Source: Clostridia bacterium (GTDB lineage: Bacteria > Bacillota > Clostridia > Oscillospirales > CAG-272). From it: DNA of 39,699 bases. Below the pieces are notes generated by a model that saw only the letters and a list, made by a program, of their open reading frames with translations, made no database searches and was not told where the DNA came from. Position 1 is the first letter of the stretch. Every line of letters starts with the position of its first letter. This document shows, piece after piece, positions 210 to 20,550 of this stretch. The DNA is taken from positions 1 to 39,699 of the forward strand of contig JAFQPI010000043.1 of NCBI GenBank assembly GCA_017411805.1, read 5' to 3'. The position numbers and the translations under genes were made by a program.

Positions 210-305
210 GCTTTTCGAGCAACGCTCGAAAAGCTACCTCAATTTTGCATTTTGCATTCTGCATTTTGCATTTATCACCTTGCATTTATCAGCTTGCATT
301 TTGCT
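210..305. repeat. Hairpin plus heptamer array, element 1
   Basis: An 11-bp perfect hairpin (GCTTTTCGAGC, loop AAC, 210-234) is followed by the spacer TACCTCAA. Nine 7-nt units in strict register follow at 243-305: TTTTGCA, TTTTGCA, TTCTGCA, TTTTGCA, TTTATCA, CCTTGCA, TTTATCA, GCTTGCA and a last TTTTGCT. The array ends 6 nt from the stop codon of the minus-strand SGNH hydrolase gene, so the array is gene-proximal and the hairpin gene-distal. Confidence 0.8.
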
Positions 306-311
306 CTACCC

Positions 312-941
312 TCAGCAAAGCTTCTCTGCCACTATCTTGCCGACCGTCTCAAACGCTTCCTTTGTCAGATGGCAATAATCCTTGAAACACTCCTCGCCCC
401 AATCGCGGGTCGCGGCGAATAGATCGTTGATCTCGACGCCCTCGCGGCGGCAGACATCGCAAGCAAGCTCGTTATAACGAATGATCTCATGGTTATATCT
501 CGGATTCGTGGCAACCTTGCCGTTCGGATTCATCGGTGTCGTTGTGGCAAAAATGATCTTGGCGTTCGGGAAAAGCTTGCGGATAAGGAAGATGATCTTT
601 CCGATATTTCTCGCGTACTCATCCTCGCTCGTCAGCGATTCGGGGGTACCGCTGAAATGCGCCGTATCCCAATGTCCGCAGTTGAAATGAACAAGGTTGA
701 CCTTACTTCTGTCGCTGAACATATTCGCCCATTTGCGGATCGAAAAAATGACGTACTGCGTGCTGCGGCAGTTATCGTCAACGTAAAAGACCTCTGCCTT
801 GCCCTTAAGCTCGTCCTTCACGGTCTTGCAATAGCCCTTTCTGATCGAGTCGCCGATCAGAAAAATATTTGGGAGCGTGTCGCTGCATATAAACTCCGCG
901 CTTGCCGCGCCGTCCTCAACGTATTTGATTACTTCACTCAT
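312..941 (-). CDS. SGNH/GDSL-type hydrolase
   Basis: 209 residues with no signal peptide, so probably cytoplasmic. The family block I appears as FLIGDSIRKGY with the presumed nucleophile Ser32. A block III-like segment reads HFNCGHWD, and a C-terminal DYCHLT supplies the Asp and His expected of block V. SGNH enzymes hydrolyse esters, often acyl or acetyl groups on sugars or lipids; the substrate cannot be read from the sequence. The start overlaps the stop of the upstream glycerophosphodiesterase gene by 4 nt (ATGA), so the two are translationally coupled and may act on one lipid- or glycan-derived substrate. The replacement of the usual GxND by a CGHWD context is mildly divergent. An esterase or a carbohydrate deacetylase are both possible. 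Confidence 0.8.
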   Translation of the reverse strand: MSEVIKYVEDGAASAEFICSDTLPNIFLIGDSIRKGYCKTVKDELKGKAEVFYVDDNCRSTQYVIFSIRKWANMFSDRSKVNLVHFNCGHWDTAHFSGTPESLTSEDEYARNIGKIIFLIRKLFPNAKIIFATTTPMNPNGKVATNPRYNHEIIRYNELACDVCRREGVEINDLFAATRDWGEECFKDYCHLTKEAFETVGKIVAEKLC

Positions 942-1720
942 TTTCTGAGTCCTCTCTTTGCAAGATATTCCTGTGCCAAAGGCAGGTTATTCGTCGTAAG
1001 ATTTACGCAACGCGCGTTGATGGCGTTGTCCATCTGCTCCTCTGTTGTGCCCGAAAGGAAGAGGACGAGACCCTTTCCTTCAACAAAATCCGCGCCGTCG
1101 AGCGTCTTCTTTACGCTCTCCGCGTCCGTCTTCGAGCCGGGGAGAGAAACACCGTAGAGCCTGTCGTAGATCGACTCGTCGAGTCTCTTCATCGAATATG
1201 GCATAAAGGAGAGGGTCTTGAACTCGGGATAGTAATCCTGGAGATATTTGAGCGTCGGGCAGTCTCCCGCTTCGATGACGGTGCGCTCAACGAGATCGTA
1301 CTCGCGGAGCATTTCAACCACTATATCTACGCACTGCGGACGGAAATCCTTGATCTCGACGATATGGAGCGGCTTATAGTCGTAACTGACGAAGAGGTCG
1401 AGCGTCTCCTTGAAGGTCGGAACGCGGCAACCGCGGAATTCCTCGCCGAATTTGATGCCCGCGTCGAGCTTCTTGATCTCCTCAAGGGTCATAAAGCTAA
1501 TCGCGCCGAAGCCGTCGGTCGTGCGCTCAACCGTCTGGTCGTGCATAATGACGGGGACGTTGTCGCGGCTGAGATGAACGTCGTATTCAAGGACGTCGCA
1601 CCGTCCGTCGAGAGCCGCGCGAAAGGATTCAAGCGTGTTCTCGGGATAGAGATCCTTGATTCCTCTGTGCGCCGTGATCTGGATATTCTGTCTTGTTGCG
1701 TCTTCCCATCTGATAGCCAT
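938..1720 (-). CDS. Glycerophosphodiester phosphodiesterase family protein
   Basis: 260 residues. This family hydrolyses glycerophosphodiesters to glycerol-3-phosphate and an alcohol on a TIM barrel. The N-terminal signature is present: AHRG at about residues 17-20, PENTLESF soon after, then the metal and acid residues in EYDVHLSRD and the MHDQTVERTTDG block. The length is normal for a cytoplasmic UgpQ-type enzyme and no signal peptide is visible. AAAGGA lies ahead of the ATG. It is the first gene of a two-gene operon with the SGNH hydrolase (4-nt overlap). The class is firm; the exact substrate is not known. Confidence 0.9.
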   Translation of the reverse strand: MAIRWEDATRQNIQITAHRGIKDLYPENTLESFRAALDGRCDVLEYDVHLSRDNVPVIMHDQTVERTTDGFGAISFMTLEEIKKLDAGIKFGEEFRGCRVPTFKETLDLFVSYDYKPLHIVEIKDFRPQCVDIVVEMLREYDLVERTVIEAGDCPTLKYLQDYYPEFKTLSFMPYSMKRLDESIYDRLYGVSLPGSKTDAESVKKTLDGADFVEGKGLVLFLSGTTEEQMDNAINARCVNLTTNNLPLAQEYLAKRGLRK

Positions 1721-1739
1721 GAGAATTTTTCCTTTCTAC

Positions 1740-1768
1740 TTGTAATTTGTCTGTTTTTGTGATAAAAT
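1740..1768 (+). promoter_or_regulatory. Sigma-A type promoter of the 1795 operon
   Basis: -35 TTGTAA at 1740-1745, a 17-nt spacer, and -10 TAAAAT at 1763-1768 preceded by an extended TGA. GGAGG follows at 1785-1789 just before the ATG at 1795. Confidence 0.6.
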
Positions 1769-1794
1769 ATAGCTAATAAGTTTCGGAGGCAAAA

Positions 1795-2202
1795 ATGAAA
1801 ACTTTCACCCTTGACTCGAATATAATAAATCTTGAGGATGCGCGGGGAGCGGATATGATCTGCTTCGTCCCGACCGCGGGATCGCTCATCGGGTGCCGAA
1901 GCGCGTGGCGCGAGGTGCTGATCGACGCTCTGCGCCGCGATATTCCGATAACGGCGGTCATCGAGGGCTTCGTCTCCCCGCTTGAGCACGCGGAATACGA
2001 CTCGATCTGCGAGATGCTCTCCTACGTCAACTTCATCTTCATCGACTCGCCCTCCGCGGAGCTTTTTGTCAAGGAGGACGTATTCGAGGACGAAGCGATA
2101 CTCCGCGCGATACATAAACGCTTCGGCGTCACGTCCGTCGTCCTGACCGACGCCTCTCTCGCCTTCGACGGCGAAAAAATCACACCCTTTGAAGGAGAAT
2201 GA
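1795..2202 (+). CDS. Hypothetical protein, possible PfkB-like fragment
   Basis: 135 residues of unrecognised function. GGAGG five nucleotides before the ATG and a good promoter support expression. The body alternates predicted beta strands and helices: ICFVPTAGSLIG near 22-33, ITAVIEGF near 52-59, FIFIDSPSAELF near 80-91 and SVVLTDASLAFDG near 116-128. The last two segments resemble the nucleoside/sugar kinase (PfkB) arrangement, where an NxxEA-like segment precedes a GxxG loop. The key GxGD motif is absent, so kinase activity is unlikely. The stop overlaps a possible ATG of the next gene, which suggests co-expression with the flavin reductase. Confidence 0.7.
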   Translation: MKTFTLDSNIINLEDARGADMICFVPTAGSLIGCRSAWREVLIDALRRDIPITAVIEGFVSPLEHAEYDSICEMLSYVNFIFIDSPSAELFVKEDVFEDEAILRAIHKRFGVTSVVLTDASLAFDGEKITPFEGE

Positions 2203-2204
2203 AT

Positions 2205-2720
2205 ATGTTATTCAAAGAAATCGATCCTTGTGAGCTTGAAAATTTGAATGCCTTCCGCGCCGTTGGCAAGGAATGGTTCCTCATCACGGCAGAGCACGGC
2301 GGCGTCCGCAACGCGATGACGGCGTCCTGGGGCTTTCTCGGCAATCTCTGGAACAAGAACGCGGCTGTCTGCTTCGTCCGTCCGCAGAGATTCACCCACA
2401 CTCTGACAGAGCACGCCGACCGCGTCAGCCTTTGCTTCTTCGGCGACGGATACCGTCCCGAGCTCGGGAAGATCTTCGGCAGATTGAGCGGCCGCAACCT
2501 CGACAAAGCCGCAGAAGCGGGCTTCCATTACACCTACCTCGACGGCGTTCCCGCATTCGAGGAGGCAAGCCTCGTCCTCGTCTGCCGCAAGATGTACACC
2601 GACCTTATCCGTGAAGAAAATTTCCTCGATCACGAGGTCGACGCAAAATGCTACCCCGAGAAGGACTACCACACGGTATATATTTGTGAGGTTGAGAAGG
2701 CGTACGTCAAAGAAGTGTAA
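2205..2720 (+). CDS. Flavin reductase family protein
   Basis: 171 residues resembling the FMN-binding split-barrel flavin reductase group (DIM6/NTAB type). The recognisable core is the N-terminal stretch with FLITAEHGGVRNAMTASWGF, where the family binds FMN, followed by AAVCFVRPQRFTHTL. These proteins reduce or bind flavin, often next to an oxidoreductase; the partner is not evident here. I start at ATG 2205, not the earlier ATG at 2199, because AAGGAG at 2192-2197 is 7 nt from 2205 but only 1 nt from 2199. The TAA stop lies inside the first unit of a heptamer array. Confidence 0.85.
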   Translation: MLFKEIDPCELENLNAFRAVGKEWFLITAEHGGVRNAMTASWGFLGNLWNKNAAVCFVRPQRFTHTLTEHADRVSLCFFGDGYRPELGKIFGRLSGRNLDKAAEAGFHYTYLDGVPAFEEASLVLVCRKMYTDLIREENFLDHEVDAKCYPEKDYHTVYICEVEKAYVKEV

Positions 2721-2782
2721 AGTGAAAAGTGTAAAGTGTAAAGTTAAGGAGAATTCCCGCCAAGGCGGGAATTTTCCTTTTT
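2715..2782. repeat. Heptamer array plus hairpin, element 2
   Basis: Units GTGTAAA, GTGAAAA, GTGTAAA, GTGTAAA occupy 2715-2742, then GTTAAGG, then a perfect 10-bp hairpin (AATTCCCGCC 2752-2761, GGCGGGAATT 2764-2773) and a T-rich tract. Read from the flavin reductase the order is stop codon, array, hairpin, T tract, so the hairpin could also terminate transcription. It mirrors element 3 across the same intergenic gap. Confidence 0.8.
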
Positions 2783-2871
2783 ATTTTAATGTTTTCTTGA
2801 TTTATTTCTGTGCGAACGGTGTCTGTACTGTATAAAAATCAGGGGCAGATTTTATTTAATAATAATCTGAA

Positions 2872-2938
2872 AATTTTCGAGCAAAGCGAGAAAATTAACC
2901 TTTCACTAGTCACTAACCACTAGTCACTAGTCACTTTT
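2872..2938. repeat. Hairpin plus heptamer array, element 3
   Basis: Hairpin arms AATTTTC 2872-2878 and GAAAATT 2890-2896 enclose GAGC-AAA-GCGA. After AACCTTT come heptamers CACTAGT, CACTAAC, CACTAGT, CACTAGT, CACTTTT (2904-2938). It is in the opposite orientation to element 2, has a wholly different heptamer, and stops 20 nt from the end of the minus-strand aldolase gene. Confidence 0.8.
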
Positions 2939-2958
2939 TTCAAAGTAAAATCCGCAAA

Positions 2959-4233
2959 TTAAAGATTAAATGCTACTTCTATTTCCCTGATCTCTTCCTC
3001 GCTGATCGGAACGATGGTTCCGTTCATTGCCGCGATGTCGCAGAGAGATTCCGCGCCGAACTCGAGGACCTCGAGGCGGTCGTAGGCGTTGAGAAGCGAG
3101 GTTCCGCCGACGATCACGCAGTCGTTTTCAATGATCGCGATCGGCGACTTGATGCTGATACTGTCAACAATTTTCTCGGGCGCGTTCTCGATCGTTCCGT
3201 AGGGATGGCGGACGGTGTTTCGAAGGCAGATATAGCCCTCCGGAATGAGATGCGAATTGAACTCGGCATCGGTTGCCGCGAACGCCATAATATAGGGCGC
3301 GCGGGAGAAGGCGATGCTGTCGATATCGTCGCGTGCGGCAAAGATTTCGCCAGCGATCTTTGCAAATCGAGAGGGAACCTTGCCCGCCTCGCACTTGCCG
3401 CCCTCAACTCGGACGTGCATATCGGGAGTCAGGCGGAGCAGATCCTCGTCGTCGGGGGTGATGATAAAGCCGTTCTCAAGCTTCTTTGCAAATGCGCCGA
3501 CGCCCATCGTGAAGATGCGGTTCTTACAGCATCTTGCGCACATAGCAGAGATCTCCTCGCGGATAGCGGTCTCGTTATCCGATCCGAGCACTGCCTCGTA
3601 AACCTTCGTATCGTTCTTGATAGCAAGCTCGTCCGCGGTGAGTGTACGCGCGGTCTTCTTGAGCATCGCTGCAGCGATTCCGGTTCTTGCGGCGTAATCA
3701 AGCGCCTCGAACATCATAAACGCTCTCTCAAGGCTATCCGCGCCGAGAACGACACCATGGTTTTCAAGCAGAACGGTGTCGCAGCCGCCCGCAAACTTCT
3801 CCGCGATCAGGTCACCGAGCTTCTTCGAGCCGGGGAGCGCGTATTTTGCGATCGCGATCTTGCCGCAGAGCTTTGATACGCCGGGCATGATATCGAGATC
3901 GGGAAGCTTTCTCTCAAGGCTGTATGCAACGAGAGCGGCGGGATGCGCGTGGAAGACTGCCTTAAGGTCGGGGCGCGAACGCAGGACTGCCAAGTGGAAG
4001 GGATATTCGGTCGAGGGACGGTGCTTGCCGTGGACAACTCCGTCGGGAGTGACCCACATTATATCCTCCGCCGTCAGATGCGCCTTGTCAACGCCGGAGG
4101 GCGAGATCCACATAACGCCGTCGTCATCCATGATCGAGAGGTTGCCGCCCGATGTGGTGGTCAGCTTGTTGTCGTAAAGTCTTGTCATTATGTAGGCTAT
4201 CTTTTCAGCCGAGGTCATATTGAGTAATTTCAT
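2959..4233 (-). CDS. Tandem class II aldolase/adducin protein with a degenerate second domain
   Basis: 424 residues, twice the usual aldolase length. Residues 1-200 form a normal class II (zinc) aldolase domain: TTSGGNLS near 26-33, STEYPFH with the presumed catalytic Glu76, the zinc ligands in FHAHP (His95, His97) and ENHG (His159). The family splits sugar phosphates such as fuculose-1-phosphate. Residues 230-424 repeat the fold (PEGYICLRNTVRHPYG matches MPGVSKLCGKIAIAKYALPG; ENDCVIVGG matches ENHGVVLG), but the metal histidines are replaced (AFSRAPY, ENDC). The second half therefore looks structural or regulatory. It is divergent from a DeoR regulator that probably controls it. The substrate is unknown. 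Confidence 0.9.
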   Translation of the reverse strand: MKLLNMTSAEKIAYIMTRLYDNKLTTTSGGNLSIMDDDGVMWISPSGVDKAHLTAEDIMWVTPDGVVHGKHRPSTEYPFHLAVLRSRPDLKAVFHAHPAALVAYSLERKLPDLDIMPGVSKLCGKIAIAKYALPGSKKLGDLIAEKFAGGCDTVLLENHGVVLGADSLERAFMMFEALDYAARTGIAAAMLKKTARTLTADELAIKNDTKVYEAVLGSDNETAIREEISAMCARCCKNRIFTMGVGAFAKKLENGFIITPDDEDLLRLTPDMHVRVEGGKCEAGKVPSRFAKIAGEIFAARDDIDSIAFSRAPYIMAFAATDAEFNSHLIPEGYICLRNTVRHPYGTIENAPEKIVDSISIKSPIAIIENDCVIVGGTSLLNAYDRLEVLEFGAESLCDIAAMNGTIVPISEEEIREIEVAFNL

Positions 4234-4266
4234 CTTGATTTCCCCTTAAAACATTTATATAACAGA

Positions 4267-4295
4267 ATTATATCATATAATTACAGATTATTCAA
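4267..4295 (-). promoter_or_regulatory. Promoter of the aldolase gene
   Basis: On the minus strand: -35 TTGAAT (4295-4290), 17-nt spacer, extended TGA and -10 TATAAT (4272-4267). AGGGGA serves as ribosome site before ATG 4233. Confidence 0.75.
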
Positions 4296-4384
4296 GAGTT
4301 TGGCCTTCGTTTTATGAAAAAACCGAAAATCACCGCGAAACGCGCAAAAGTATTTCATTTTTTGCGTATTTGACAAGCTTCTGC

Positions 4385-4413
4385 TTGACTCGAATGCGCA
4401 ATTGTGGTATAAT
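4385..4413 (+). promoter_or_regulatory. Promoter of the DeoR regulator gene
   Basis: -35 TTGACT at 4385-4390, 17-nt spacer, extended TGG and -10 TATAAT at 4408-4413. Upstream, CGCAAAA (4343-4349) and TTTTGCG (4360-4366) form an inverted repeat between the two divergent promoters and could be an operator; that is a guess. Confidence 0.75.
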
Positions 4414-4441
4414 CTATTTATCAAACACGGGAGAAGATGCC

Positions 4442-5200
4442 ATGTCAAAGGAAGAAAGATACGCGCAGATACTCGATATTTTACGCACGCGGGGCGACGT
4501 TACCGTGGGCTATCTCGCAAAAAAGCTTTTCGTCAGCCCATCGACGATCCGCCGCGACTATCAGGAGCTCGAGGCGCGCGGGCTTTTGCACCACACCTAC
4601 GGCAAAGCGACGCTGAATTACGGCGAGGAGGCGGGGCTGCCCATCCTTTTGCGCCGCAAGAGCATGCCCGAGGCAAAGCTCAATATCGGAAGGCGCGCCG
4701 CCGAGCTGATCCGCGACGGCGACATCATCTTCATCGACGGCTCATCGACCGCGCTTTGCATGGTCGAGCATCTTTCGCGCTTCAATCACCTCACCGTCGT
4801 CACGAACGGTCTGCATGCGCTCGCACAGCTCGAGCATTTCAGCAACCTGACCGTCTATTCGCTCGGCGGTTTGCGTATGAATAATTCGATGGCTCTGACG
4901 GGTCAGTTCGCGCTCGAAAATCTCTCGAGAATGCACATCGACAAATGCTTCTTCTCGACCACGGGAGTCTCGACGGACGGCAGGCTTCTTGCCGCGATCG
5001 AGCCCGAGGAGACCGTCGTCTCGATGGCACTTTCGCGCTCGAACACGACAGTTTTCCTTTGCGACAGCTCAAAGATCGGGAAGACCTACCTCATCGAGCT
5101 CTGCCGCATCGAGGACGTCGATTACGTCATCTCGGACGCCGACTTTTTCGATTCGGTAAAATGTTCCGAGGAGGCAAAGACTGTCTTCATCAAAGCTTGA
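4442..5200 (+). CDS. DeoR/GlpR family transcriptional regulator
   Basis: 252 residues. Residues 1-57 form the DeoR winged helix-turn-helix (ERYAQILDILRTRGDVTV, then KKLFVSPSTIRRDYQELE). Residues 75-235 are the sugar-phosphate sensing domain with IIFIDGSSTALCMVEHL, LTVVTNGLHAL and CDSSKIGKTYL. DeoR proteins usually repress a neighbouring sugar-catabolic operon and release DNA on binding a phosphorylated sugar. Here the divergent class II aldolase is the obvious target, so the ligand is probably a sugar phosphate handled by that enzyme (inference). I chose ATG 4442 because GGGAGAAG lies 8 nt before it and the promoter -10 at 4408 lies after the upstream in-frame ATG at 4370. The stop overlaps the next gene's -35. 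Confidence 0.92.
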   Translation: MSKEERYAQILDILRTRGDVTVGYLAKKLFVSPSTIRRDYQELEARGLLHHTYGKATLNYGEEAGLPILLRRKSMPEAKLNIGRRAAELIRDGDIIFIDGSSTALCMVEHLSRFNHLTVVTNGLHALAQLEHFSNLTVYSLGGLRMNNSMALTGQFALENLSRMHIDKCFFSTTGVSTDGRLLAAIEPEETVVSMALSRSNTTVFLCDSSKIGKTYLIELCRIEDVDYVISDADFFDSVKCSEEAKTVFIKA

Positions 5201-5225
5201 CAAGTCTCCTTCAGTATGCTATAAT
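5197..5225 (+). promoter_or_regulatory. Promoter of the RCC1-repeat lipoprotein gene
   Basis: Consensus -35 TTGACA at 5197-5202, exact 17-nt spacer, consensus -10 TATAAT at 5220-5225. The -35 overlaps the TGA stop (5198-5200) of the DeoR gene. GGAGG follows about 10 nt before ATG 5255. Confidence 0.85.
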
Positions 5226-5254
5226 TATTAAATCAACCCCCGGAGGACTAACAA

Positions 5255-6340
5255 ATGAAAAGAATCATTTCCTTAATACTTGCATTCATCATGCTCATTT
5301 CCTTCGCCGCATGCGACGAAGATACAAAAAAGGACAGAGATGACAAGGATAAAGACAAGGACAAAACGAGCAAGACCACCGAAATCGAAGAAGAAACCGA
5401 GCCCGAAGCAGCCACATTCCGCGGCAAGATCGACACCATGGATGCCAACTCCTATTTTATTCTGGCAGTAAATGAAGACGGCGGCGCGGTCTACACCGGC
5501 GGAACCGACTTTACGGGCAATATCAACCTGGAAGCTTGGAAAAACATAGTCAAGGTCTCCGTCGGAGGCAATCATTTTGCCGCGATCAGCTCCGAGGGAA
5601 AGGCATACGCCGCAGGCTACGCCAAGGGCAACAGATGTCTGGTTCAGGGTTGGACCGACATCGTCGATATCTATGCGGGATTTGAGATCACCGTCGGAGT
5701 GAAGTCAGACGGCACGGTCGTTTCGACCGCCGCACAGAGCGCGTTCGAGGGCTGGAAGGATATCGTTTCCCTGACGGGATTAGGCGATACTATCTACGGT
5801 CTTTCAAAGAACGGCGACGTCTACGCACCAAACAAAAAAGCCCCGATCATGACGGACGTCAAGAGCATCCACTGCAACGTGTATTTCCCTCTCTTTATCA
5901 AGAATGACGGCACCGTTGTCGGCAACGATCCTGAATCCAGCCATTATTATTCGGGAATAGAAAACTGGACCGGCGTTAAAGATATTGCAATGAACCACAC
6001 CAATCTCTCCGCCGGACTTATGGAGGACGGAACCGTCAAGCTCATCGGCAAGGAGAACACAGTATCTCAATGCGACGTATCGGGATGGACCGATATCGTA
6101 GCCGTTGCGGTCGGAGATTACCACGTAGTCGGACTGAGATCCAACGGCACCGTAGTTGCCACGGGCATAAACGGATACGGTCAATGCGACGTATCCGAAT
6201 GGAGGGACGTCGTCGCAATTTGGGCAAATAACGTCGTAACCATCGGCTTGCGCGAAAACGGCAAGGTCGTTGTCGCCGGCCGCTTCATGGGCGAGAAAAA
6301 CGAAACTTACAAGTGGAGCGGGATCAAGACAGATAAATAA
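5255..6340 (+). CDS. Secreted lipoprotein with RCC1-like beta-propeller repeats
   Basis: 361 residues. An N-terminal lipoprotein signal (MKRIISLILAFIMLISFAAC) ends in a Cys that would be acylated. A highly charged linker rich in Lys, Asp and Glu (residues 22-50) follows, then about six to seven repeats of roughly 45 residues. The repeat signature is W-x-[DN]-I-V followed by a Gly-x-x-x-x-x-[AG]-[IL]-x-x-[DN]-G hairpin, for example GWTDIVDIYAGFEITVGVKSDGTV and GWTDIVAVAVGDYHVVGLRSNGTV. That pattern is RCC1/BLIP-II type and predicts a beta propeller on the outer face of the membrane. Such propellers mediate protein or glycan contacts; no catalytic function is expected. It has its own strong promoter and a shared bidirectional terminator. 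Confidence 0.88.
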   Translation: MKRIISLILAFIMLISFAACDEDTKKDRDDKDKDKDKTSKTTEIEEETEPEAATFRGKIDTMDANSYFILAVNEDGGAVYTGGTDFTGNINLEAWKNIVKVSVGGNHFAAISSEGKAYAAGYAKGNRCLVQGWTDIVDIYAGFEITVGVKSDGTVVSTAAQSAFEGWKDIVSLTGLGDTIYGLSKNGDVYAPNKKAPIMTDVKSIHCNVYFPLFIKNDGTVVGNDPESSHYYSGIENWTGVKDIAMNHTNLSAGLMEDGTVKLIGKENTVSQCDVSGWTDIVAVAVGDYHVVGLRSNGTVVATGINGYGQCDVSEWRDVVAIWANNVVTIGLRENGKVVVAGRFMGEKNETYKWSGIKTDK

Positions 6341-8264: not shown

Positions 8265-8270
8265 ATCTTT

Positions 8271-10294: not shown

Positions 10295-10364
10295 AACTTT
10301 TCGAGCAACGCGAGAAAAGTTACCTTAACTTTACACTTTACACTTTCCACTTTTCACTCTACAA
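10295..10364. repeat. Hairpin plus heptamer array, element 4
   Basis: Hairpin arms AACTTTTC (10295-10302) and GAAAAGTT (10314-10321) enclose GAGC-AAC-GCGA. Spacer ACCTTAAC, then heptamers TTTACAC, TTTACAC, TTTCCAC, TTTTCAC and TCTACAA (10330-10364). It faces the 3' end of the minus-strand gene that stops at 10412. It also marks the break point of the sulfatase remnant. Confidence 0.8.
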
Positions 10365-11548: not shown

Positions 11549-13351
11549 ATGTGCGGAATTATCGGATATACGGGACGCGAAAACGGCATCCCGAAGATCG
11601 TGCGGGGGCTCTCCGTCCTTGAATACCGCGGCTACGATTCCGCGGGGATCGCCGCCCGGACCGAGTCGGGAACCGAAATAATCAAATGCCGCGGACGCAT
11701 CGGCACGCTCTGCGAAAGACTTGCGGAGACTCCGATATCGTCGCAGACCGCCATCGGGCACACCCGATGGGCGACCCACGGCGTGCCGAGTGACGTCAAC
11801 GCCCACCCCCACCGCGCGGGTCGCGTCACTCTTGTCCACAACGGCATAATCGAGAACTACTCGGAGCTTTGCGAGGAGCTTTCGGGGCGCGGTTGGAGGG
11901 CCGTCTCCGAGACCGATACCGAGGTCGCCGCGGCACTCATCGCGGAGGAATACGAACGCACCGATTCGCCCCTCATCTCGATCAGAAACGCCTGCTCGCG
12001 TATGGTCGGTTCTTACGCCTTTGCCATAATTTTCGAGGACGTGCAAGGTGTAATTTTCGCCGTCAGAAGGGGCTCTCCGCTGCTGATCGGAAGGAGCACG
12101 GACGGCTCTTATCTCGCCTCGGATATGACTGCACTTCTGCCCTTCACACGGCAGTATTATCCCCTCGCGGAAGGCGAGATCGCATGTCTTTCCGCAGATG
12201 AGATCGAAATCAATAATGGCGCGATCTCCCATTCTCCAACTTGGCAAGTCAGCGCATTGACCGCCGAATCGGCGCAAAAGGGAGGATATTCCCATTTTAT
12301 GCTCAAGGAGATCTTTGAGCAGCCCGAAGCTCTTCGGAAGGTACTTTCGCCACGTCTGCGCACTCCTCTCCCCGACTTTTCGGGCGACTCGATCGAGCCC
12401 GATTTCTGGCGCGGGATCACCTCATTTCAGATCGTTGCATGCGGCTCGGCGACACACGCGGGGATGGTCGGCGCGCACTTCATCGAGCGTTACGCCCGCA
12501 TCCCCGTGACCGTCCACACCGCCTCCGAATACCGCTATTCACCGCCCCTCGCGGCGGAGGGGACGGCAGTGCTTCTGATCTCGCAATCGGGCGAGACAGC
12601 GGACACCCTCGCCGCGCTCAGATACGCGAGATCGCAGGGGCTTCCCACCCTCGCGATCGTCAACGCAGTCGAAACCTCGATCGCGCGCGAAGCCGACCGC
12701 AGGATCTACACCTACGCGGGTCCCGAGATCGCGGTCGCAACGACTAAGGGCTACGCAACGCAAGTCGCCGCCCTCGCCCTTATCGCCATCGCGGCGGGGC
12801 TGGCGCGGGGTGCGCTTTCGGCATCCGCAGGCGAGACGCTTTCAAACTCCTTGCTTCATTCCGCGCCCGACGCGATCACTGAAATGCTCACAAGACGCGG
12901 CGAGATCGCATCCTTTGCGCAAAGGCTCAAGTCGCACGCGCACGTCTTCTTCATTGGGCGCGGACTCGACTATTCGCTTGCGCTCGAGGCCGCGCTCAAG
13001 CTCAAGGAGATCTCCTATATCCACGCCGAGGCATACGCGGCGGGCGAGCTCAAGCACGGAACGATATCCCTCATCGAGCAGGGCACGCCCGTTGCCGCCA
13101 TTACCACCCTTCCCGCCCTTTCCGCCAAGACCGAGAGCAATATCCGCGAGGTCGCAAGCCGCGGCGCGGACGTCATCCGCATCTCTGCGGACGAGTCGGA
13201 AAACGCTATACGAGTTGCGAACGGCTCGGAATTCGCCGCCTTCTTCTCCGCCATGACTGCCTGTCAGCTTCTTGCCTTCGAGACCGCGCTTGCGAGAGGA
13301 TGCGATATTGATAAGCCGAGAAATTTAGCGAAGTCGGTAACTGTTGAATAA
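11549..13351 (+). CDS. glmS: Glutamine--fructose-6-phosphate aminotransferase (isomerizing)
   Basis: 600 residues, full length. It makes glucosamine-6-phosphate from fructose-6-phosphate and glutamine, the first step to UDP-GlcNAc and peptidoglycan. The N-terminal glutaminase domain starts MCGIIGYTG with Cys2 as nucleophile and shows EYRGYDSAG and HTRWATHG. The two SIS isomerase domains show SQSGETADTLAAL and GRGLDYSLALEAALKLKEIS, and the C-terminus is DKPRNLAKSVTVE. The ribosome site is ACGAGG, 8 nt from ATG. A TATACT (11508-11513) with a weak -35 may be its promoter. The ~145-nt leader is too short and lacks the core of the glmS ribozyme. A hairpin array begins directly at the stop codon. 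Confidence 0.97.
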   Translation: MCGIIGYTGRENGIPKIVRGLSVLEYRGYDSAGIAARTESGTEIIKCRGRIGTLCERLAETPISSQTAIGHTRWATHGVPSDVNAHPHRAGRVTLVHNGIIENYSELCEELSGRGWRAVSETDTEVAAALIAEEYERTDSPLISIRNACSRMVGSYAFAIIFEDVQGVIFAVRRGSPLLIGRSTDGSYLASDMTALLPFTRQYYPLAEGEIACLSADEIEINNGAISHSPTWQVSALTAESAQKGGYSHFMLKEIFEQPEALRKVLSPRLRTPLPDFSGDSIEPDFWRGITSFQIVACGSATHAGMVGAHFIERYARIPVTVHTASEYRYSPPLAAEGTAVLLISQSGETADTLAALRYARSQGLPTLAIVNAVETSIAREADRRIYTYAGPEIAVATTKGYATQVAALALIAIAAGLARGALSASAGETLSNSLLHSAPDAITEMLTRRGEIASFAQRLKSHAHVFFIGRGLDYSLALEAALKLKEISYIHAEAYAAGELKHGTISLIEQGTPVAAITTLPALSAKTESNIREVASRGADVIRISADESENAIRVANGSEFAAFFSAMTACQLLAFETALARGCDIDKPRNLAKSVTVE

Positions 13352-13443
13352 GTTAATATCCGCCTTCGGCAGAGTTAAGATTGCTTCGCAAGTTAAGATC
13401 GGCTTGCGCCGAGTTAAGATTCGCCTGCGGCGAAGTTGAATAG
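13351..13443. repeat. Hairpin-linker array, AGTTAA family, copy 1
   Basis: Four mini-hairpins with different stems are separated by 9-nt linkers AGTTAATAT or AGTTAAGAT: CCGCC-TTC-GGCAG (13360-13372, one mismatch), TGC-TTC-GCA (13382-13390), CGGC-TTGC-GCCG (13400-13411) and TCGCC-TGC-GGCGA (13421-13433). It starts on the last base of the glmS stop codon and its linkers match copy 2 after rpoZ. Confidence 0.75.
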
Positions 13444-14715: not shown

Positions 14716-14727
14716 GAGGCAAAAACA

Positions 14728-14988: not shown

Positions 14989-15029
14989 ATTTTTAATATA
15001 ATTATTTCACAAAATAAAGGAGAAACATC

Positions 15030-15335: not shown

Positions 15336-15339
15336 TTAT

Positions 15340-15437
15340 CGGCTTTGCCGAGTTAATGTCACGCTTCGCGTGAGTTAATATTGGCTTCGCCAAGTTAATG
15401 TCGGCTTCGCCGAGTTAAGATTTCCGCTTGCGCGGAA
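15340..15437. repeat. Hairpin-linker array, AGTTAA family, copy 2
   Basis: Five perfect mini-hairpins alternate with 9-nt linkers AGTTAATGT, AGTTAATAT or AGTTAAGAT: CGGC-TTT-GCCG (15340-15350), CACGC-TTC-GCGTG (15360-15372), TGGC-TTC-GCCA (15382-15392), CGGC-TTC-GCCG (15402-15412), TTCCGC-TTGC-GCGGAA (15422-15437). Stem bases change between units while pairing is kept in each. The array starts 5 nt after the rpoZ stop and runs into heptamer element 5. Confidence 0.8.
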
Positions 15438-15452
15438 AATGATCAAAAGGAA

Positions 15453-15511
15453 AATTTTCGCCTCGGCGAAAATTCACCTTAACTTTACACTTTACACTTT
15501 ACACTTTACAC
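15453..15511. repeat. Hairpin plus heptamer array, element 5
   Basis: A perfect 10-bp hairpin AATTTTCGCC-TC-GGCGAAAATT (15453-15474), spacer CACCTTAAC, then four identical TTTACAC units (15484-15511) ending 13 nt before the priA GGAGG. Confidence 0.8.
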
Positions 15512-15537
15512 TTGCGCAGCACACGGAGGTACGCCAA

Positions 15538-18048
15538 ATGCAAAATAAATACGCCGGCGTGTACCTCCTGGATGCGCCATTCTCGCTCGACCGCGAATAC
15601 GATTATCTCATCCCGCAGGGGATCGAGATCGAACCCGGCGACTTTGTCGGTATTCCCTTCGGAAACGGCAACCGCCGCCGTATCGCGCTCGTCACTTCGA
15701 CAAAGGACAAAACCGACGTCCCCGCCGATAAGGTCAAGCCCCTGCTTGCCAGATGCGCGGACGGACTCCGCCTTGACGGTGAAATGCTCGAAATATGGCG
15801 TTTTCTCCGCGCAAATACACTCTGCACGACCTCCGACGCCATCCACGCAATGATCCCCTCCGCCGCTCTCTCGCGGCTCGAGGAAATATATACTCCGGGC
15901 GAAAAGACTCCGACCAAATCGGTGATCGAAAATGCTCAGGCAATGATGATATATAACCTCATCGTCAGCCGCGGCCGTATAGGCGAGGAGGCTCTGCGCT
16001 ACCGCTTCGGTGTCAAGACCTCGGAATCGATCGAAAAGCTGCTGCGGGCGGGCTGTATCAAAAAAGAGCTTGAGCTCCGCGAGCCCTCCGAGGGCAAGCA
16101 AGAATCGCTCTATTCGCTCGGGGTATCAGCCGAAGCAGTCAGCGTTTACGCCGAGGGAGGCATCATCGACGGCAAAAAAGCGCCGAAGCTCCGCTCCGAG
16201 GGTCAGCTCTGCGTCCTTCGTATGCTTCTCGAGAAGGGCGAGCCGATGACCTCCGCCGAGCTCCGCGCGAACACCTCCGTCACCGCGGCAAACATCTCCG
16301 CGCTCCTCAAGAAGGGTCTCATCATCGAAGAAAAGAGATCCGTTTTCCGCGATCTTACTCTGATCGGTGCGCAAGCCGAGGCCTCCGAGCGCAAGGCACT
16401 TAAGCTGAGCGACGAGCAAAGCGATGCTCTGCGGACTCTCTCCGAACTCTATTCATCGGGCGAGCCGCGCGCCGCTCTCCTTGAGGGCGTCACGGGAAGC
16501 GGAAAGACCAGCGTTATGCTTGCTCTGATCGACCGCGTTCTTGAATCGGGGCGCGACGTCATCCTGCTCCTTCCCGAGATCGCGCTTACACCGCAGACTC
16601 TCTCGATCTTTTGCGCGCGCTACGGCGAGAGCGTCGCGCTTCTCCATTCCGCGATGTCCGCGGGCGAGCGACAGGACTCATGGGGCAGAATTAAATCGGG
16701 AGAGGCAAGGCTCGTTATCGGAACGCGCTCCGCCGTCTTCGCTCCCACGAAAAAGCTCGGTCTCATCATCATCGACGAGGAGCACGAGCACACCTACAAA
16801 TCCGACGCCTCTCCGCGCTACCACGCGAGGGATATCGCGCGTCTTCGCTGTGCCTACTCAAAAGCCCTGATGCTTCTTGCCTCGGCAACTCCGTCGCTCG
16901 AGAGCAGAAAGAAGGCTGAGGACGGCGCGTACACCTTAGTCAGACTCACGAAGCGTTACGGAAACGCCATTCTTCCCGAGGTCATAGTCGCAGATATGCG
17001 CGACGAGGCAAAATCGGGAAATTCCTCCCCGATCGGACGCGAGCTCTCAGCGGCTCTGCTCGAGACCTATGAGCGAGGCGAGCAATCTATTCTCTTTCTC
17101 AACCGACGAGGATACAATAATTACGTTTCATGCGCCGCATGCGGCGAGGCGATCAAATGCCCCTCCTGCAGCGTTTCTATGACCTATCACACAAACCGCC
17201 GCAGCTACGAGGAGGGTTACCTCGTATGCCATTGGTGCGGACGTCGTATGCCCCTTCCGCGCGAGTGCCCCGAATGTAAATCCGAGCACCTCGTCCGCAT
17301 GGGCTACGGCACGCAAAAGGTCGAGCAGGAGCTTTCCATCCTCCTTCCCGACGCAAAAATCCTTCGTATGGATACCGACACGACGCAATCGAAAAACTCG
17401 TACCGCGATCTGCTCGGCAGATTCCGCCGCCACGAGGCTGATATCCTGCTCGGCACGCAGATGGTCACGAAGGGGCACGACTTCCCCGACGTCACCCTCG
17501 TCGGCGTTCTTCTTGCCGACACCTCGCTTTATTACGACGACTACCGCGCAGAGGAGCGCACCTTCGCGCTTCTGACGCAGGTGATCGGACGTGCGGGCAG
17601 GCGCGACAAGCCGGGGCGTGCGATCATCCAGACGAACAATCCCGACCACGAGGTCATCGAACTTGCGAGCATGCAGGATTACGAGACCTTCTACCACCGC
17701 ACGATCCGCTTGCGCCGTGCGCTGACCTTCCCGCCCTACTGCGATATCGCGCTCCTGACCGTCACGGGCAGGGTCGAGCAGGACGTTCTCAAGGCTTCAA
17801 ACGCGATGAACGATCTTCTCCGTGCGCTCACGCAGTCGGAAAAATACCGCGATCTCCCCTTCATAATCTTCGGGCCCTTCGAGGCACCCGTCTACCGCGT
17901 CGACGGCAAATACCGTATGCGTATGGTCGTCAAATGCAAGCTGAATGCAAAATCGCGCAGGCTTTTCGCGCAGTTACTTACCGAATTTCCCGCCGAGGGT
18001 GCGCAGTCACCCACGCTTTCAATAGATTTCAATCCAACAAATCTCTAA
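15538..18048 (+). CDS. priA: Primosomal replication restart helicase PriA
   Basis: 836 residues, full length. PriA recognises stalled forks and reloads the replisome. The N-terminal 3'-end-binding domain starts AGVYLLDAPFSLDREYDYLIP. The helicase core has Walker A GVTGSGKTSVML, the DEEH box IIDEEHEHTYK, and LLASATPSLES. The inserted zinc region has eight cysteines, CAACGEAIKCPSC and CHWCGRRMPLPRECPEC. Helicase motifs GTQMVTKGHDFPDVTLVGVL and QVIGRAGR follow. I start at ATG 15538 because GGAGG is 8 nt upstream and the family N-terminus fits; an earlier in-frame ATG would translate the heptamer array. coaBC, usually just upstream, is absent. Confidence 0.97.
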   Translation: MQNKYAGVYLLDAPFSLDREYDYLIPQGIEIEPGDFVGIPFGNGNRRRIALVTSTKDKTDVPADKVKPLLARCADGLRLDGEMLEIWRFLRANTLCTTSDAIHAMIPSAALSRLEEIYTPGEKTPTKSVIENAQAMMIYNLIVSRGRIGEEALRYRFGVKTSESIEKLLRAGCIKKELELREPSEGKQESLYSLGVSAEAVSVYAEGGIIDGKKAPKLRSEGQLCVLRMLLEKGEPMTSAELRANTSVTAANISALLKKGLIIEEKRSVFRDLTLIGAQAEASERKALKLSDEQSDALRTLSELYSSGEPRAALLEGVTGSGKTSVMLALIDRVLESGRDVILLLPEIALTPQTLSIFCARYGESVALLHSAMSAGERQDSWGRIKSGEARLVIGTRSAVFAPTKKLGLIIIDEEHEHTYKSDASPRYHARDIARLRCAYSKALMLLASATPSLESRKKAEDGAYTLVRLTKRYGNAILPEVIVADMRDEAKSGNSSPIGRELSAALLETYERGEQSILFLNRRGYNNYVSCAACGEAIKCPSCSVSMTYHTNRRSYEEGYLVCHWCGRRMPLPRECPECKSEHLVRMGYGTQKVEQELSILLPDAKILRMDTDTTQSKNSYRDLLGRFRRHEADILLGTQMVTKGHDFPDVTLVGVLLADTSLYYDDYRAEERTFALLTQVIGRAGRRDKPGRAIIQTNNPDHEVIELASMQDYETFYHRTIRLRRALTFPPYCDIALLTVTGRVEQDVLKASNAMNDLLRALTQSEKYRDLPFIIFGPFEAPVYRVDGKYRMRMVVKCKLNAKSRRLFAQLLTEFPAEGAQSPTLSIDFNPTNL

Positions 18049-18062
18049 AAGGAAAAATTACC

Positions 18063-18575
18063 ATGGCTAAACGCAAGATACTTACAGACAACGATCCCAC
18101 CCTCCGCACGGTCTGCCGTCCCGTACCGCGCATCACTCCCCGTGTCATCACCCTTCTTGACGACATGGTCGAGACCATGCGCTACGCAAACGGCGTCGGA
18201 CTCGCGGCTCCGCAGGTCGGAGTTCTTCTCCGCGCCGTAGTCATCGAGACCGAGCCGGGCGTGGTCCACGAGCTGATCAACCCCGAGATCATCGAGACTT
18301 CGGGCGAGCAGGAGGGCAGCGAGGGTTGTCTTTCCCTTCCCGGACGTTCGGGGCACGTAAAGCGTCCGAATTACGTCAAGGTCAAGGCTCTCAACCGTAA
18401 CGGTGAGGAATACGTTCTCGAGGGAACCGAGCTTCTCGCGCGTGCGATCTGCCACGAGACCGATCACCTCGACGGTCATCTCTACATCGACTTTGCCGAC
18501 TATATGTACGAGCCCGAAGAGGAGGAGCGAGTTTCGCCCCGACTCCGTAAGCACGCGAGGAAGCACGAGAGATAA
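18063..18575 (+). CDS. def: Peptide deformylase
   Basis: 170 residues. It removes the N-formyl group from nascent proteins, paired functionally with fmt downstream. All three motifs are present: GVGLAAPQVG near 40-49, EGCLSLPG near 83-90 (Cys metal ligand) and HETDHLDG near 125-132 (HExxH ligands plus catalytic Glu). The C-terminus is an Arg/Lys-rich tail. AAAAGGA overlaps the end of priA and the ATG is 14 nt after the priA stop, so the genes are coupled. The fmt gene, normally adjacent, is separated here by about 860 nt of repeats. Confidence 0.97.
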   Translation: MAKRKILTDNDPTLRTVCRPVPRITPRVITLLDDMVETMRYANGVGLAAPQVGVLLRAVVIETEPGVVHELINPEIIETSGEQEGSEGCLSLPGRSGHVKRPNYVKVKALNRNGEEYVLEGTELLARAICHETDHLDGHLYIDFADYMYEPEEEERVSPRLRKHARKHER

Positions 18576-18631
18576 TATAAGTTGCTGGTTTAAGGTGAAT
18601 TTCCGCCGTGCGGAAATTTCCGATTGAACTG

Positions 18632-18708
18632 TCTCTGCCTCCCTCTGAGTGAGGGAATACCTGCTGACGCAGCTTAGGACCGTCGCTTGACGACGGTGGA
18701 GGGAGAGA
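18632..18708. repeat. Multibranch structured element
   Basis: Outer arms TCTCTGCCTCC (18632-18642) and GGAGGGAGAGA (18698-18708) pair with one mismatch. Inside are three hairpins: CTC/GAG near 18643-18653, CTGC-TGAC-GCAG (18661-18672), and ACCGTCG/CGACGGT (18679-18697). The cloverleaf-like design is suggestive, but no anticodon or T-arm is present, so it is not a tRNA. Confidence 0.55.
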
Positions 18709-18740
18709 TACCCTATTCCAAGCACCGAATTAAGTAAACA

Positions 18741-18949
18741 CGATATATTCGCTCCGCGAATGCGATATATGAATACGATATATCTTCGATACGATATGTT
18801 CGCCGACGGCGAACGTGAATTAGATCGGTGAATTTCCGCCGTGCGGAAATTTTCCTTAACGTTCCGCTTTGCGGAACATATAGCATCCGCAGGATATATC
18901 GTGCCGTAGGTATATCGTATCCGTAGGATATATCACGTGCCGTAGGCAC
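18741..18949. repeat. Hairpin-linker array, ATATATCG family
   Basis: Hairpins ATTCGC-TCC-GCGAAT (18747-18761), GTTCGCC-GAC-GGCGAAC (18798-18814), GTTCCGC-TTT-GCGGAAC (18861-18877), ATCC-GCA-GGAT (18885-18895), TATCC-GTA-GGATA (18918-18930) and GTGCC-GTA-GGCAC (18937-18949) are joined by CGATATAT or ATATATCG-like linkers. The logic is the same as in the AGTTAA arrays but the linker differs. Confidence 0.65.
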
Positions 18950-19165
18950 ATATAATAATATTCAGAACGCTTAACAAAAGGTTCGCACTCTCTTACTCCC
19001 CTTCCCGGTTTACGGGAAGGGGGCGGGGGATGGGTCCCTATTTGCAGATACAAAATTATCAGGATATCGGCAAAATCCCTATGCGGGCGCAAAATTACCT
19101 GTATGCGCCTACGGAGAAATGAAAACTCTATCGGGATTGCGCGCCGAAGGCGCGCGGAGTGACAA

Positions 19166-19262
19166 AGTCAATACTTCCCTACACTCGGGAAGTATTGACT
19201 CTGTCCAAAACGGAGAAGCAAAGCTTCACCGTTTTGAAGCATAGTAGCGAGACCTGGAGGTC
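19166..19262. repeat. Run of long hairpins
   Basis: A perfect 14-bp stem AGTCAATACTTCCC / GGGAAGTATTGACT (19166-19200), then CAAAACGGAGAAGC-AAA-GCTTCACCGTTTTG arms with one mismatch, then GCGAGACCT-GG-AGGTCTCGC. No T tract follows any of them, so none looks like a standard terminator. Confidence 0.65.
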
Positions 19263-19351
19263 TCGCATTGAAATGGGGCTCTGCCCCAAACCCCGCAAAC
19301 TTTGAAAAGTTTGATCAAACTTTCCCGCTGTTTTACTTTTAATAAAAATCG

Positions 19352-19420
19352 GAAATTTCCGAGCGTAGCGACGGAAATTCTCCCTATTGTGCATTTTGCA
19401 TTTTGCATTTTGCATTCCCC
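19352..19420. repeat. Hairpin plus heptamer array, element 6
   Basis: Hairpin arms GAAATTTCCG (19352-19361) and CGGAAATTC (19372-19380) surround AGC-GTA-GCGA. Heptamers ATTGTGC, ATTTTGC, ATTTTGC, ATTTTGC, ATTCCCC (19386-19420) run up to the AAAGGAGG of fmt. Confidence 0.8.
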
Positions 19421-19436
19421 TTAAAGGAGGTACAAA

Positions 19437-20381
19437 ATGAAAATACTCTTCATGGGCACTCCCGACTTCGCCGCCGTCGCGCTTTCCGCAATCTGCGACG
19501 CGGGCGAGAATGTCATCGGTGTCATAACTCTCCCCGACAGACCCGTCGGACGCGGCTACAAGCTGACTCCCTCCGCCGTCAAGGTCTGCGCACTTGAAAG
19601 AAATATTCCCGTTTATCAGCCGACGACCCTCAAGGGCGAGGAATTCGCCGCGCTCCTTGACTCGATCGCGCCCGAGCTGATAATCGTTGCCGCTTACGGC
19701 AAGATCCTGCCGAAAAACGTTCTCGACTATCCGAAGTACGGCTGTATCAACATCCACGGCTCGCTCCTTCCCGAATACCGCGGTGCCGCTCCTATGCAGC
19801 GCGCCATCATCGACGGCAAGCCCTTCACGGGAATCACCACGATGATGATGGACGTCGGACTCGACACGGGCGACATCCTCCTTACCGAGCGCGTCGATAT
19901 CCTTCCCGAGGACAATTTCGAAACCATCCACGATAAAATGGCGGCGGTCGGCGGCTCACTTATGCTTAAAACCATCGACGCCATCCGCGCGGGCACTCTC
20001 GTCCGCATCCCTCAGGACACGACGGGAATCGAGCCGACCTACGCCGCAAAGATCGAAAAAGCGGAATGTCTCATAAATTTCGCACTCGACGCAAATACTA
20101 TCCATAACAAGATACGCGGACTCTCCCCCTTTCCGCTCTCATACGCTCGTATGCCCGACGGCAAGATGCTCAAGTTCGTAGCATCTCGCGTAGCTCCGAG
20201 CGGTGAGCCCACCGAGATCGGCAAGGTAGTCTCTGCTGACAGATCCATCATCATCGCCTGCGGCGAGGACGGACAAGATCGCATCGAGATCACCCGCGTC
20301 CTTCCCGAAGGAAAGGGACGGATGGACGCAGCGGATTTTCTCAGAGGGCGCAAGCTCGTTCTCGGCGACATCTTAAGTTAA
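19437..20381 (+). CDS. fmt: Methionyl-tRNA formyltransferase
   Basis: 314 residues, full length. It formylates initiator Met-tRNA with 10-formyl-THF. The N-terminal Rossmann part starts KILFMGTPDFAAVAL. The formyl-transfer core shows CINIHGSLLPEYRGAAPMQRAI, with the HGSLLP motif, and MMDVGLDTGDIL with the catalytic Asp. The C-terminal OB-like domain, from about residue 205, shows IRGLSPFPLSYARMPDGK. AAAGGAGG sits 8 nt before the ATG, right after heptamer element 6. Neighbours def and rsmB are the usual ones. Confidence 0.97.
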   Translation: MKILFMGTPDFAAVALSAICDAGENVIGVITLPDRPVGRGYKLTPSAVKVCALERNIPVYQPTTLKGEEFAALLDSIAPELIIVAAYGKILPKNVLDYPKYGCINIHGSLLPEYRGAAPMQRAIIDGKPFTGITTMMMDVGLDTGDILLTERVDILPEDNFETIHDKMAAVGGSLMLKTIDAIRAGTLVRIPQDTTGIEPTYAAKIEKAECLINFALDANTIHNKIRGLSPFPLSYARMPDGKMLKFVASRVAPSGEPTEIGKVVSADRSIIIACGEDGQDRIEITRVLPEGKGRMDAADFLRGRKLVLGDILS

Positions 20382-20407
20382 GCTTTTATTCTCGTTCCAT
20401 CATATAA

Positions 20408-20469
20408 ATGCAAAAGGCAAAATGCAAAAGGCAAAATTATGGTAACTTTTTGCGAATTGCACAAAAAGT
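20408..20469. repeat. Heptamer array plus hairpin, element 7
   Basis: ATGCAAA, AGGCAAA, ATGCAAA, AGGCAAA (20408-20435) begin 26 nt after the fmt stop. Then comes GGTAA and hairpin ACTTTTTG/CAAAAAGT (20445-20469). It is the reverse orientation of element 8; together they bracket the fmt-peptidase gap. Confidence 0.75.
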
Positions 20470-20481
20470 ATTAAATAAAAT

Positions 20482-20550
20482 GATTTTCGAGCCTCGGTGA
20501 GAAAATCTTCCTTCCATTTTGCATTCTGCATTCTGCATTTTGCATTCCAA
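20482..20550. repeat. Hairpin plus heptamer array, element 8
   Basis: Hairpin arms GATTTTC (20482-20488) and GAAAATC (20501-20507), spacer TTCCTTCC, heptamers ATTTTGC, ATTCTGC, ATTCTGC, ATTTTGC, ATTCCAA (20516-20550), directly followed by the AGGAG of the peptidase gene. Confidence 0.8.

Follow-up and report, generated by a model that had tools for sequence, protein, structure and literature searches.

Heptamer arrays and hairpins in a Clostridia contig: probable ends and gene-less copies of a small insertion element related to 23S_rRNA_IVP genes

Heptamer arrays at the locus and in its genome

The stretch analysed here, contig JAFQPI010000043.1 of a Clostridia bacterium (assembly GCA_017411805.1; 39,699 nt, hereafter the window), is contig C40 of a genome of 2.46 Mb in 73 contigs, 84.7% complete. 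Its protein genes, named from family searches, include priA, def and fmt, and eight features that combine a hairpin with a tandem array of 7-nt units adjoin genes of this kind (Table 1). These features are probably the ends and complete copies of a small, high-copy insertion element whose full-length form carries a gene for 23S_rRNA_IVP (IVP; PF05635, a four-helix-bundle protein).

All eight arrays listed in a first-pass annotation were found again at their positions by TRF and by a lag-7 scan. In the lag scans, self-matches at a given lag were required at 18 or more of 21 positions, with 17/21 as the relaxed threshold; array thresholds vary among the analyses below (17/21, 18/21 or 12/14). 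At the strict threshold the window gave seven arrays at lag 7, none at lags 4–6, 8–13 and 15, and five at twice that period (lag 14). The array at 2903 is the eighth and passes at the relaxed threshold of 17/21. Likewise, 424 kb of the window's genome contained 28 arrays at lag 7 and 0–1 for each other lag from 2 to 13, with 12 at lag 14 and 5 at lag 15. Across 1.22 Mb from five related genomes, 97 arrays were counted at lag 7 and none at lags 8–11; the remaining lags gave 6 in total (lags 2–6), 9 (lag 12), 1 (lag 13), 35 (lag 14) and 9 (lag 15). This sample consists of non-random stretches, several of them chosen from contigs with known matches; shuffling it in 60-nt blocks left no array at lag 7. 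Searching the window's genome for one unit as a pattern gave 67 matches (forward and reverse), against one for the reversed pattern. The unit of exactly 7 nt with free sequence, as first annotated, holds, and either copying that measures length or a protein that reads this period is a possible source of it.

The proposed links to hairpins and gene boundaries were also borne out. On one or both sides of 61 of 116 arrays, a hairpin with 9 or more net pairs lay no further than 55 nt away, compared with 2% of 400 random single 55-mers. Most of the length of 98/116 arrays fell outside open reading frames (ORFs) of at least 100 aa, though such ORFs make up 86% of the sample, and the median distance to the nearest ORF end was 20 nt. 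ORFs were called crudely here and in the comparison of IVP genes with other ORFs below, as the longest non-overlapping frames. In the five genomes, array length was about 4.5 units in 69/116 (mean 4.4, SD 0.56), shorter arrays being lost below the detection floor.

Arrays are the inverted ends of small elements

Judged by eye, the parts of the element are ordered array, spacer, hairpin, core, hairpin, spacer and inverted array. The spacer near ACCTTAA that had been annotated is present, with a correction: it reads YACCTYA or its complement and is itself 7 nt long, in register with the array units. It had also been claimed that the array always faces a gene. Arrays do lie near gene ends, but within an inverted pair the array is outermost and the hairpin lies further in, and this orientation therefore only reflects the location of the elements in intergenic gaps.

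This arrangement was examined in neighbouring arrays, taken as those within 700 bp of each other in the 1.22 Mb, with units counted as matching at two mismatches or fewer. Of 34 such pairs, 28 were inverted with matching units, 2 were direct with matching units and 4 were neither, in agreement with the composite design and the inverted bracketing of gaps first described. The core measured 29–272 nt in 25 of the 28 inverted pairs, without an ORF of 60 aa, and 421–455 nt in the other three, with one IVP gene each; IVP was the sole ATG-started ORF of at least 60 aa found inside the 28. Three of the 28 chain within one tandem duplication (L008:4134-4589). At the same locus (L008:4133-4464), a tandem duplication of about 300 bp takes in a heptamer array and a hairpin.

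Reading inward, the left array was purine-rich in 25/28 inverted pairs, and 37 of 50 arrays with a one-sided hairpin showed the same purine polarity relative to the hairpin. Since arrays are usually purine-rich in the inward direction at both ends, RNA transcribed from a whole element is expected to fold into one long stem, like the intervening sequences (IVSs) of 23S rRNA. The terminal inverted repeats could indeed form such a stem, and whole-element RNA folds gave z = -9.7, -13.3 and -5.1 against shuffles.

The elements are dispersed and mostly lack a gene. A DNA search with one copy returned 111 matches on both strands, comprising near-full copies and many partial ends genome-wide. Alignment of 11 copies or fragments placed the ends about 330 bp apart around a strong central hairpin. 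The copy cut by the contig start is 85% identical to that at G000:C31:30600-31000 over query positions 40–328. Short, gene-less, with terminal inverted repeats and many dispersed copies, these sequences have the properties of miniature inverted-repeat transposable elements (MITEs). Element DNA was detected in 5/39 related genomes, the window's own included. All copies in the window are gene-less and its contig has no PF05635 match; an Rfam scan of the window found one tRNA, no rRNA and hence no element inside an rRNA gene. In the pair at 20406-20547, the core is 74 nt and the units match in inverted orientation.

Table 1. Coordinates of the element ends and copies in the window
Position	Strand	Feature	Basis or remark
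1..304	-	Long-form gene-less element, ~330-bp family, cut by contig start	Aligned with 10 other copies or fragments
210..304	-	Right end of the preceding element: hairpin 210-234, spacer TACCTCA 235-241, array ATTTTGC 242-304	
2713..2744	+	Left array AAGTGTA of gene-less inverted pair	TRF, lag-7 scan
2745..2777	+	7-nt spacer and left hairpin of the 2713-2938 element	By eye; RNA fold of 2712-2940, z = -5.1
2872..2902	+	Right hairpin (TTTTCGAGC..GCGAGAAAA) and spacer of the 2713-2938 element	By eye
2903..2938	+	Right array CACTAGT of the 2713-2938 element	Unit differs from that of the left end
10296..10363	+	Right end: hairpin, spacer TACCTTA, array ACTTTAC (10328-10363)	Lag-7 scans
15453..15513	+	Single end immediately before priA: hairpin, spacer CACCTTA, array ACTTTAC (15482-15513)	
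19350..19416	+	Single end immediately before fmt: hairpin, spacer, array TTTTGCA (19386-19416)	
20406..20470	+	Left end of short gene-less pair: array AAATGCA/AAAGGCA, spacer, hairpin	
20483..20547	+	Right end of short gene-less pair: hairpin, spacer, array ATTCTGC/ATTTTGC	

Matching arrays on both sides of IVP genes

PF05635 matches were found in 24/39 genomes, 74 in total with three in the window's genome. We examined 71 of them, with coordinates taken from the family search. Arrays (17/21, within 350 nt) were present on both sides of 9 IVP genes, on one side of 16 and on neither side of 46. In the five array-rich genomes, both-sided arrays (at least 17/21, within 350 nt) occurred at 7/26 IVP genes compared with 11/901 other ORFs (odds ratio 30, p = 1.5e-7). 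In seven array-poor, IVP-bearing genomes, the flanks of 29 IVP genes (20 kb) held 8 arrays where 0.15 were expected, seven of these upstream. A 400-kb sample of six genomes without an IVP match gave no array at 18/21 and two at 17/21.

We compared units at 82 of 87 loci, five having been dropped at a translation check. Both-sided repeats of period 7 were found at 19 loci and of period 8 at one; periods 5, 6, 9 and 10 gave none. The two units were inverted repeats of each other within one mismatch at 16 of the 19 both-sided loci, compared with a mean of 2.3 and a maximum of 8 in 2000 shuffled pairings. At one clostridial locus (L188) the ends were identical over 35 nt, variants included. Unit sequence was also set against IVP lineage (34 loci; Mantel r = -0.25, with 0/2000 permutations as low). 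Units were shared within one mismatch in 79% of 19 pairs of IVPs that are 60–80% identical, but in only 43% of seven pairs above 80%; given this poorer fit and the inclusion of one-sided arrays, the correlation is weak. Five residues (Q, S, N, E, E) were invariant in 16 IVPs from elements with unrelated units, which would fit a function of IVP independent of unit sequence.

Other repeats were seen around IVP genes. At two loci (L247 and L248) the gene is bracketed, instead of by heptamers, by an ATATCG inverted repeat that is similar to the ATATATCG-type hairpin repeats of the window, and in Gemmatirosa (L305) and Picosynechococcus (L311) the brackets are period-8 repeats, weaker in the latter.

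Occupied and empty sites

A tblastn search of plasmids with one IVP protein gave 30 records, mostly from Cyanobacteria, with Riemerella, Gemmatirosa and Azospirillum among the rest. Annotated plasmid copies adjoin annotated coding sequences (CDSs). At the 16 loci fetched for the array test (12/14, within 250 nt), period-7 arrays were present on both sides in 9 and on one side in 5, compared with 0/131 and 8/131, respectively, for control CDSs from three plasmid stretches. For cyanobacterial plasmids only, both-sided arrays were found at 8/14 IVP genes and at 0/131 other CDSs (p = 7.5e-10).

Gain and loss between strains, a comparison suggested by the first-pass annotation, could be followed in Nostoc plasmids with 88–96% identical surroundings, where array, IVP gene and array are present or absent as a block. 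One junction is empty in L304, L319, L321 and L322 and filled by array-IVP-array in L318 and L320. The next is empty in L318–L322 and carries a different IVP element in L304. At a third junction, gene-less inverted-array elements with different cores were recognized by eye in L318 and L319. A further copy elsewhere (L331) retains its two arrays together with the initial part and the last codons of the IVP gene, the middle being lost. Its two ends share 86% and 89% identity with the IVP element of L318; it is a gene-less derivative by internal deletion. An IVP element also separates nrdB from nrdA in L298 and is absent from an 85% identical Calothrix region (L317). IVP elements also lie between cas6 and cas4 (L300, L302) and between cas10 and cmr3 (L311, with period-8 flanks).

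By eye, TTCTA (possibly GRTTCTA) flanks the element of L318 on both sides and is present as a single copy at the empty site, as a target duplication would be, but its sequence is similar to that of the unit. An origin of the unit from the target, considered at four Nostoc sites by eye, was unsupported save for one suggestive case.

The gaps of the window could be followed in relatives through a scan with the Fmt protein (best 80 loci, 1.35 Mb); fmt, def, priA and a zinc peptidase gene were named from family searches. In the close relatives L108–L110 (Fmt 91–92% identical), arrays recur in three gaps, at priA and on either side of fmt, but often with a different unit. After fmt, the unit is AAATGCA in the window, GGGCAGA in L108, TTCACTG in L109, ACTTTTC in L110 and ATTATTC in the more distant L112. 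Before priA, the window and L110 share the same end type (L110:6397-6433 in the latter) and L109 has ATTTTGC. The site matching 10296..10363 holds an inverted array pair in L110, a related species. In the def-fmt gap, L108 contains a complete element (L108:5944-6495) with an IVP gene between GGTAG hairpins, resembling those of the window, and inverted TTAGTTG arrays; an element with the same arrays in G001 (L212) gives a PF05635 match of 2.5e-41. The same gap holds another IVP gene between inverted AGTGGAC arrays in L109, without hairpins, and no array in L110. Among the best 80 loci, the 20 lag-7 arrays were confined to 9, so that arrays are not general among these relatives.

Two further repeats were noticed in the window. 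Tandem hairpins with a period of about 20–21 nt (TTAAT..GGCTTCGCC), a different small repeat in the same gaps, occupy 13351-13433 and 15337-15422, and hairpin repeats of the ATATATCG type lie at 18740-18950.

Interpretation and alternative explanations

From its architecture, its association with IVP genes, the block insertion at Nostoc sites and the one gene-less deletion derivative, all directly observed, the best reading of the element is as a genuine mobile unit occurring in several phyla, with a likely parent that is IVP-encoding and IVS-like. The features of the window are then best read as its gene-less (MITE-like) copies or single ends. The terminal inverted repeats would be the tandem heptamer arrays (4–5 units here), followed inward by the 7-nt spacer and the hairpin; most copies are gene-less, and in the full-length form the same ends would enclose a single gene, 23S_rRNA_IVP (four-helix bundle / S23). 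Gene-less copies would be mobilized in trans by whatever machinery moves IVP elements. Template switching across the palindrome may homogenize the two arms, by which the unit of one element could change as a whole.

IVP itself may bind the array or the folded stem and take part in mobility. The protein is described as a pentamer (PMC4990558, available text), and the structures of IVP relatives 2gsc and 2rld have five chains each in the deposition. Homology to Avd, a protein of diversity-generating retroelements (DGRs), is mentioned in the available text of PMC10053308, and one of our IVPs matches the Avd models of Pfam (6.5e-7) and NCBIfam (1.3e-8), both below the cut-offs. It is a speculative and rather unlikely extension that the IVP pentamer is the mobility protein, with rings reading 7-nt units at the ends of the folded element, in which register would fix the length and leave the sequence rewritable as a lineage-specific heptamer address. 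A pentamer-times-seven rule for array length suits the Clostridia, but cyanobacterial lengths vary widely, and the rule was retained only within this extension.

Several observations weigh against an IVP-derived mobile element. In the window, the inverted pair made up of the arrays at 2713 and 2903 has unlike units. All three IVP-containing pairs come from stretches of contigs on which IVP genes were already known. Within 350 nt, 46/71 IVP genes have no array on either side and 16 have one-sided arrays, and one-sided arrays show no enrichment at the IVP genes of the five array-rich genomes (3/26 compared with 109/901). Seven IVP-bearing genomes without a detected element show two arrays in a 400-kb sample, so that IVP alone is not the cause of array expansion. 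Period 8 is seen on both sides in L305 and, at a weaker level, in L311, suggesting that unit length may be lineage-specific. Units are discordant in L309, differ by two in L191 and L211, and look direct by eye in L300. Arrays at cyanobacterial IVP loci run from about 3 to 22 units, unlike the approximately 4.5 of the sampled Clostridia. Finally, family searches of two IVP proteins gave no catalytic domain and no mobilizing enzyme was identified, and target-site duplication is limited to the single candidate at one Nostoc site, with none established.

The missing catalytic domain is what favours a conventional transposase acting in trans on the elements, with IVP as a passenger or accessory gene often captured by the ends: insertion and dispersal are clear, and in a genome 84.7% complete and split into 73 contigs such an enzyme could be missed. 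We regard this as possible though on the unlikely side, since IVP is the only ORF of at least 60 aa within the 28 inverted pairs. A single transposase family is also hard to square with both-sided arrays of unrelated units at IVP genes in Clostridia, Cyanobacteria and one Bacteroidota locus. The elements might instead be of the repetitive extragenic palindrome (REP) or REPIN type, moved by a REP-associated tyrosine transposase (RAYT, TnpA-REP). REPs carry a GTAG tag, which the inner spacer and hairpin, often a GGTAG-stem, resemble, and the hairpins are paired in inverted orientation. Some relatives have RAYT-like genes, with PF01797 matches in 18/39 genomes and, in G005 and G010, genes that match NCBIfam REP_Tyr_transpos below the cut-off. 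However, the Y1 transposase partner that the first-pass annotation had put forward did not appear: the window's genome, at its 84.7% completeness, has no match to Y1_Tnp (PF01797) and no cognate RAYT gene flanked by the same repeats. G015, 98% complete and element-rich, has a PF01797 match of only 48 positions in a 62-aa frame. A query with the RAYT-like protein of G005 found relatives in G005 and G010 and none in G000, G001 and G015. Moreover, the RAYT-like genes of G005 and G010 lie, by eye, near a different, GTAGGG-type palindrome pair, with no period-7 array within the 4-kb stretches examined. A RAYT-moved origin is thus highly improbable. These two loci (L093, L094), with their GTAGGG..CCCTAC palindromes, apparently represent a separate REPIN-like system.

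The other partner put forward, a reverse transcriptase, fared no better: RVT_1 had no match in the window's genome, again at 84.7% completeness, and was rejected as a general partner with matches in 16/39 genomes and, among the five element genomes, in G010 and G015 and not in G000, G001 and G005. On the plasmid pANA02 of Anabaena sp. 90, which also carries an IVP element, a gene annotated as RNA-directed DNA polymerase lies beside an annotated DGR protein Avd (L329:9043-10539).

Arrays could also be simple repeats grown by slippage, or sites for a regulatory protein, comparable to short tandemly repeated repetitive (STRR) sequences, with hairpins and IVP genes coincidental. Heptamers are reported as over-represented intergenic repeats in the available text of PMC4692102, and a regulatory role is proposed for TAACTGA repeats in that of PMC4679880. 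The narrow array length, even with its truncated lower tail, the inverted concordance of paired units and the joint presence or absence of arrays and IVP gene as one block in Nostoc plasmids argue against this explanation, which we consider very unlikely.

Comparison with known systems

MITEs and REPIN/RAYT systems are defined by small, gene-less, intergenic units with inverted-repeat ends, present in high copy and moved in trans. The elements described here are likewise small, gene-less, inverted at their ends, intergenic and of high copy, and are apparently moved in trans. They differ in that no matching transposase was found, in that the ends are tandem arrays of an interchangeable unit, and in that the coding relative carries IVP and no transposase. 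MITEs are further marked by a target-site duplication and an autonomous partner, for which the TTCTA motif at one Nostoc site and the IVP elements are putative counterparts.

Intergenic heptamers themselves have been described before. In Xanthomonas, GGGAATC repeats most commonly have four units and form 70 and 75 convergent inverted pairs in two genomes, and the same paper reports that, in general, such heptamers were not found in association with mobile elements (PMC4692102, available text). Families of four or five tandem heptanucleotide repeats in Geobacter metallireducens are annotated as regulatory elements (PMC2700814, available text). As far as the available texts go, the heptamers of Xanthomonas and Nostoc (PMC4692102) and the TAACTGA repeats of Beggiatoaceae and Cyanobacteria (PMC4679880) are likewise 7 nt long and mostly intergenic, and are treated as G-quadruplex or regulatory sequences; we read comparable arrays as element ends. 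The term S23 is absent from the main text of both papers. Among the top-ranked papers from text searches of the open PMC library, none was found to join intergenic heptamer arrays and IVP genes as one mobile element; subscription journals lie mostly outside that library, so an earlier description may exist. IVP genes near cas genes have been reported as a CRISPR association (PMC3936711 and PMC10910872, available text), which may instead reflect insertions between cas genes, as in L300, L302 and L311, rather than parts of immunity.

The closest likeness is to the IVS in the 23S rRNA gene of Coxiella burnetii. According to the available text of PMC4990558, it measures 428 nt and has a single IVP ORF, a 28-bp stem formed by its terminal inverted repeats, and tandem heptamers (GACAGAT) directly upstream of the ORF; it is termed a selfish element with origin and function stated as unclear. 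IVP-coding insertions also occur in rRNA genes of the candidate phyla radiation (CPR; PMC11270868, available text). Both the Coxiella IVS and our full-length elements are small, with one IVP ORF, terminal inverted repeats and heptamers. The IVS lies inside the 23S rRNA gene, from whose transcript RNase III excises it. Our elements, in contrast, are intergenic, number dozens of copies, are mostly gene-less and have a subterminal hairpin in Clostridia; their inverted repeats are the heptamer arrays, with a unit that varies between elements. Their modelled RNA fold would be compatible with RNase III excision. In view of the heptamers before the Coxiella IVP gene, we class the elements as an intergenic variant of the IVS. 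This links two orphans, intergenic heptamer repeats, which have no accepted cause, and the four-helix-bundle/S23/IVP proteins, with solved structures and no known function, so that two long-standing questions about bacterial genomes may have a single answer, and how an element without a known transposase moves becomes a testable question in cyanobacteria. If IVP were indeed the mobility protein, the heptamer repeats of Cyanobacteria, Xanthomonas, Geobacter and Clostridia and the IVSs of rRNA would form one widespread transposase-less class.

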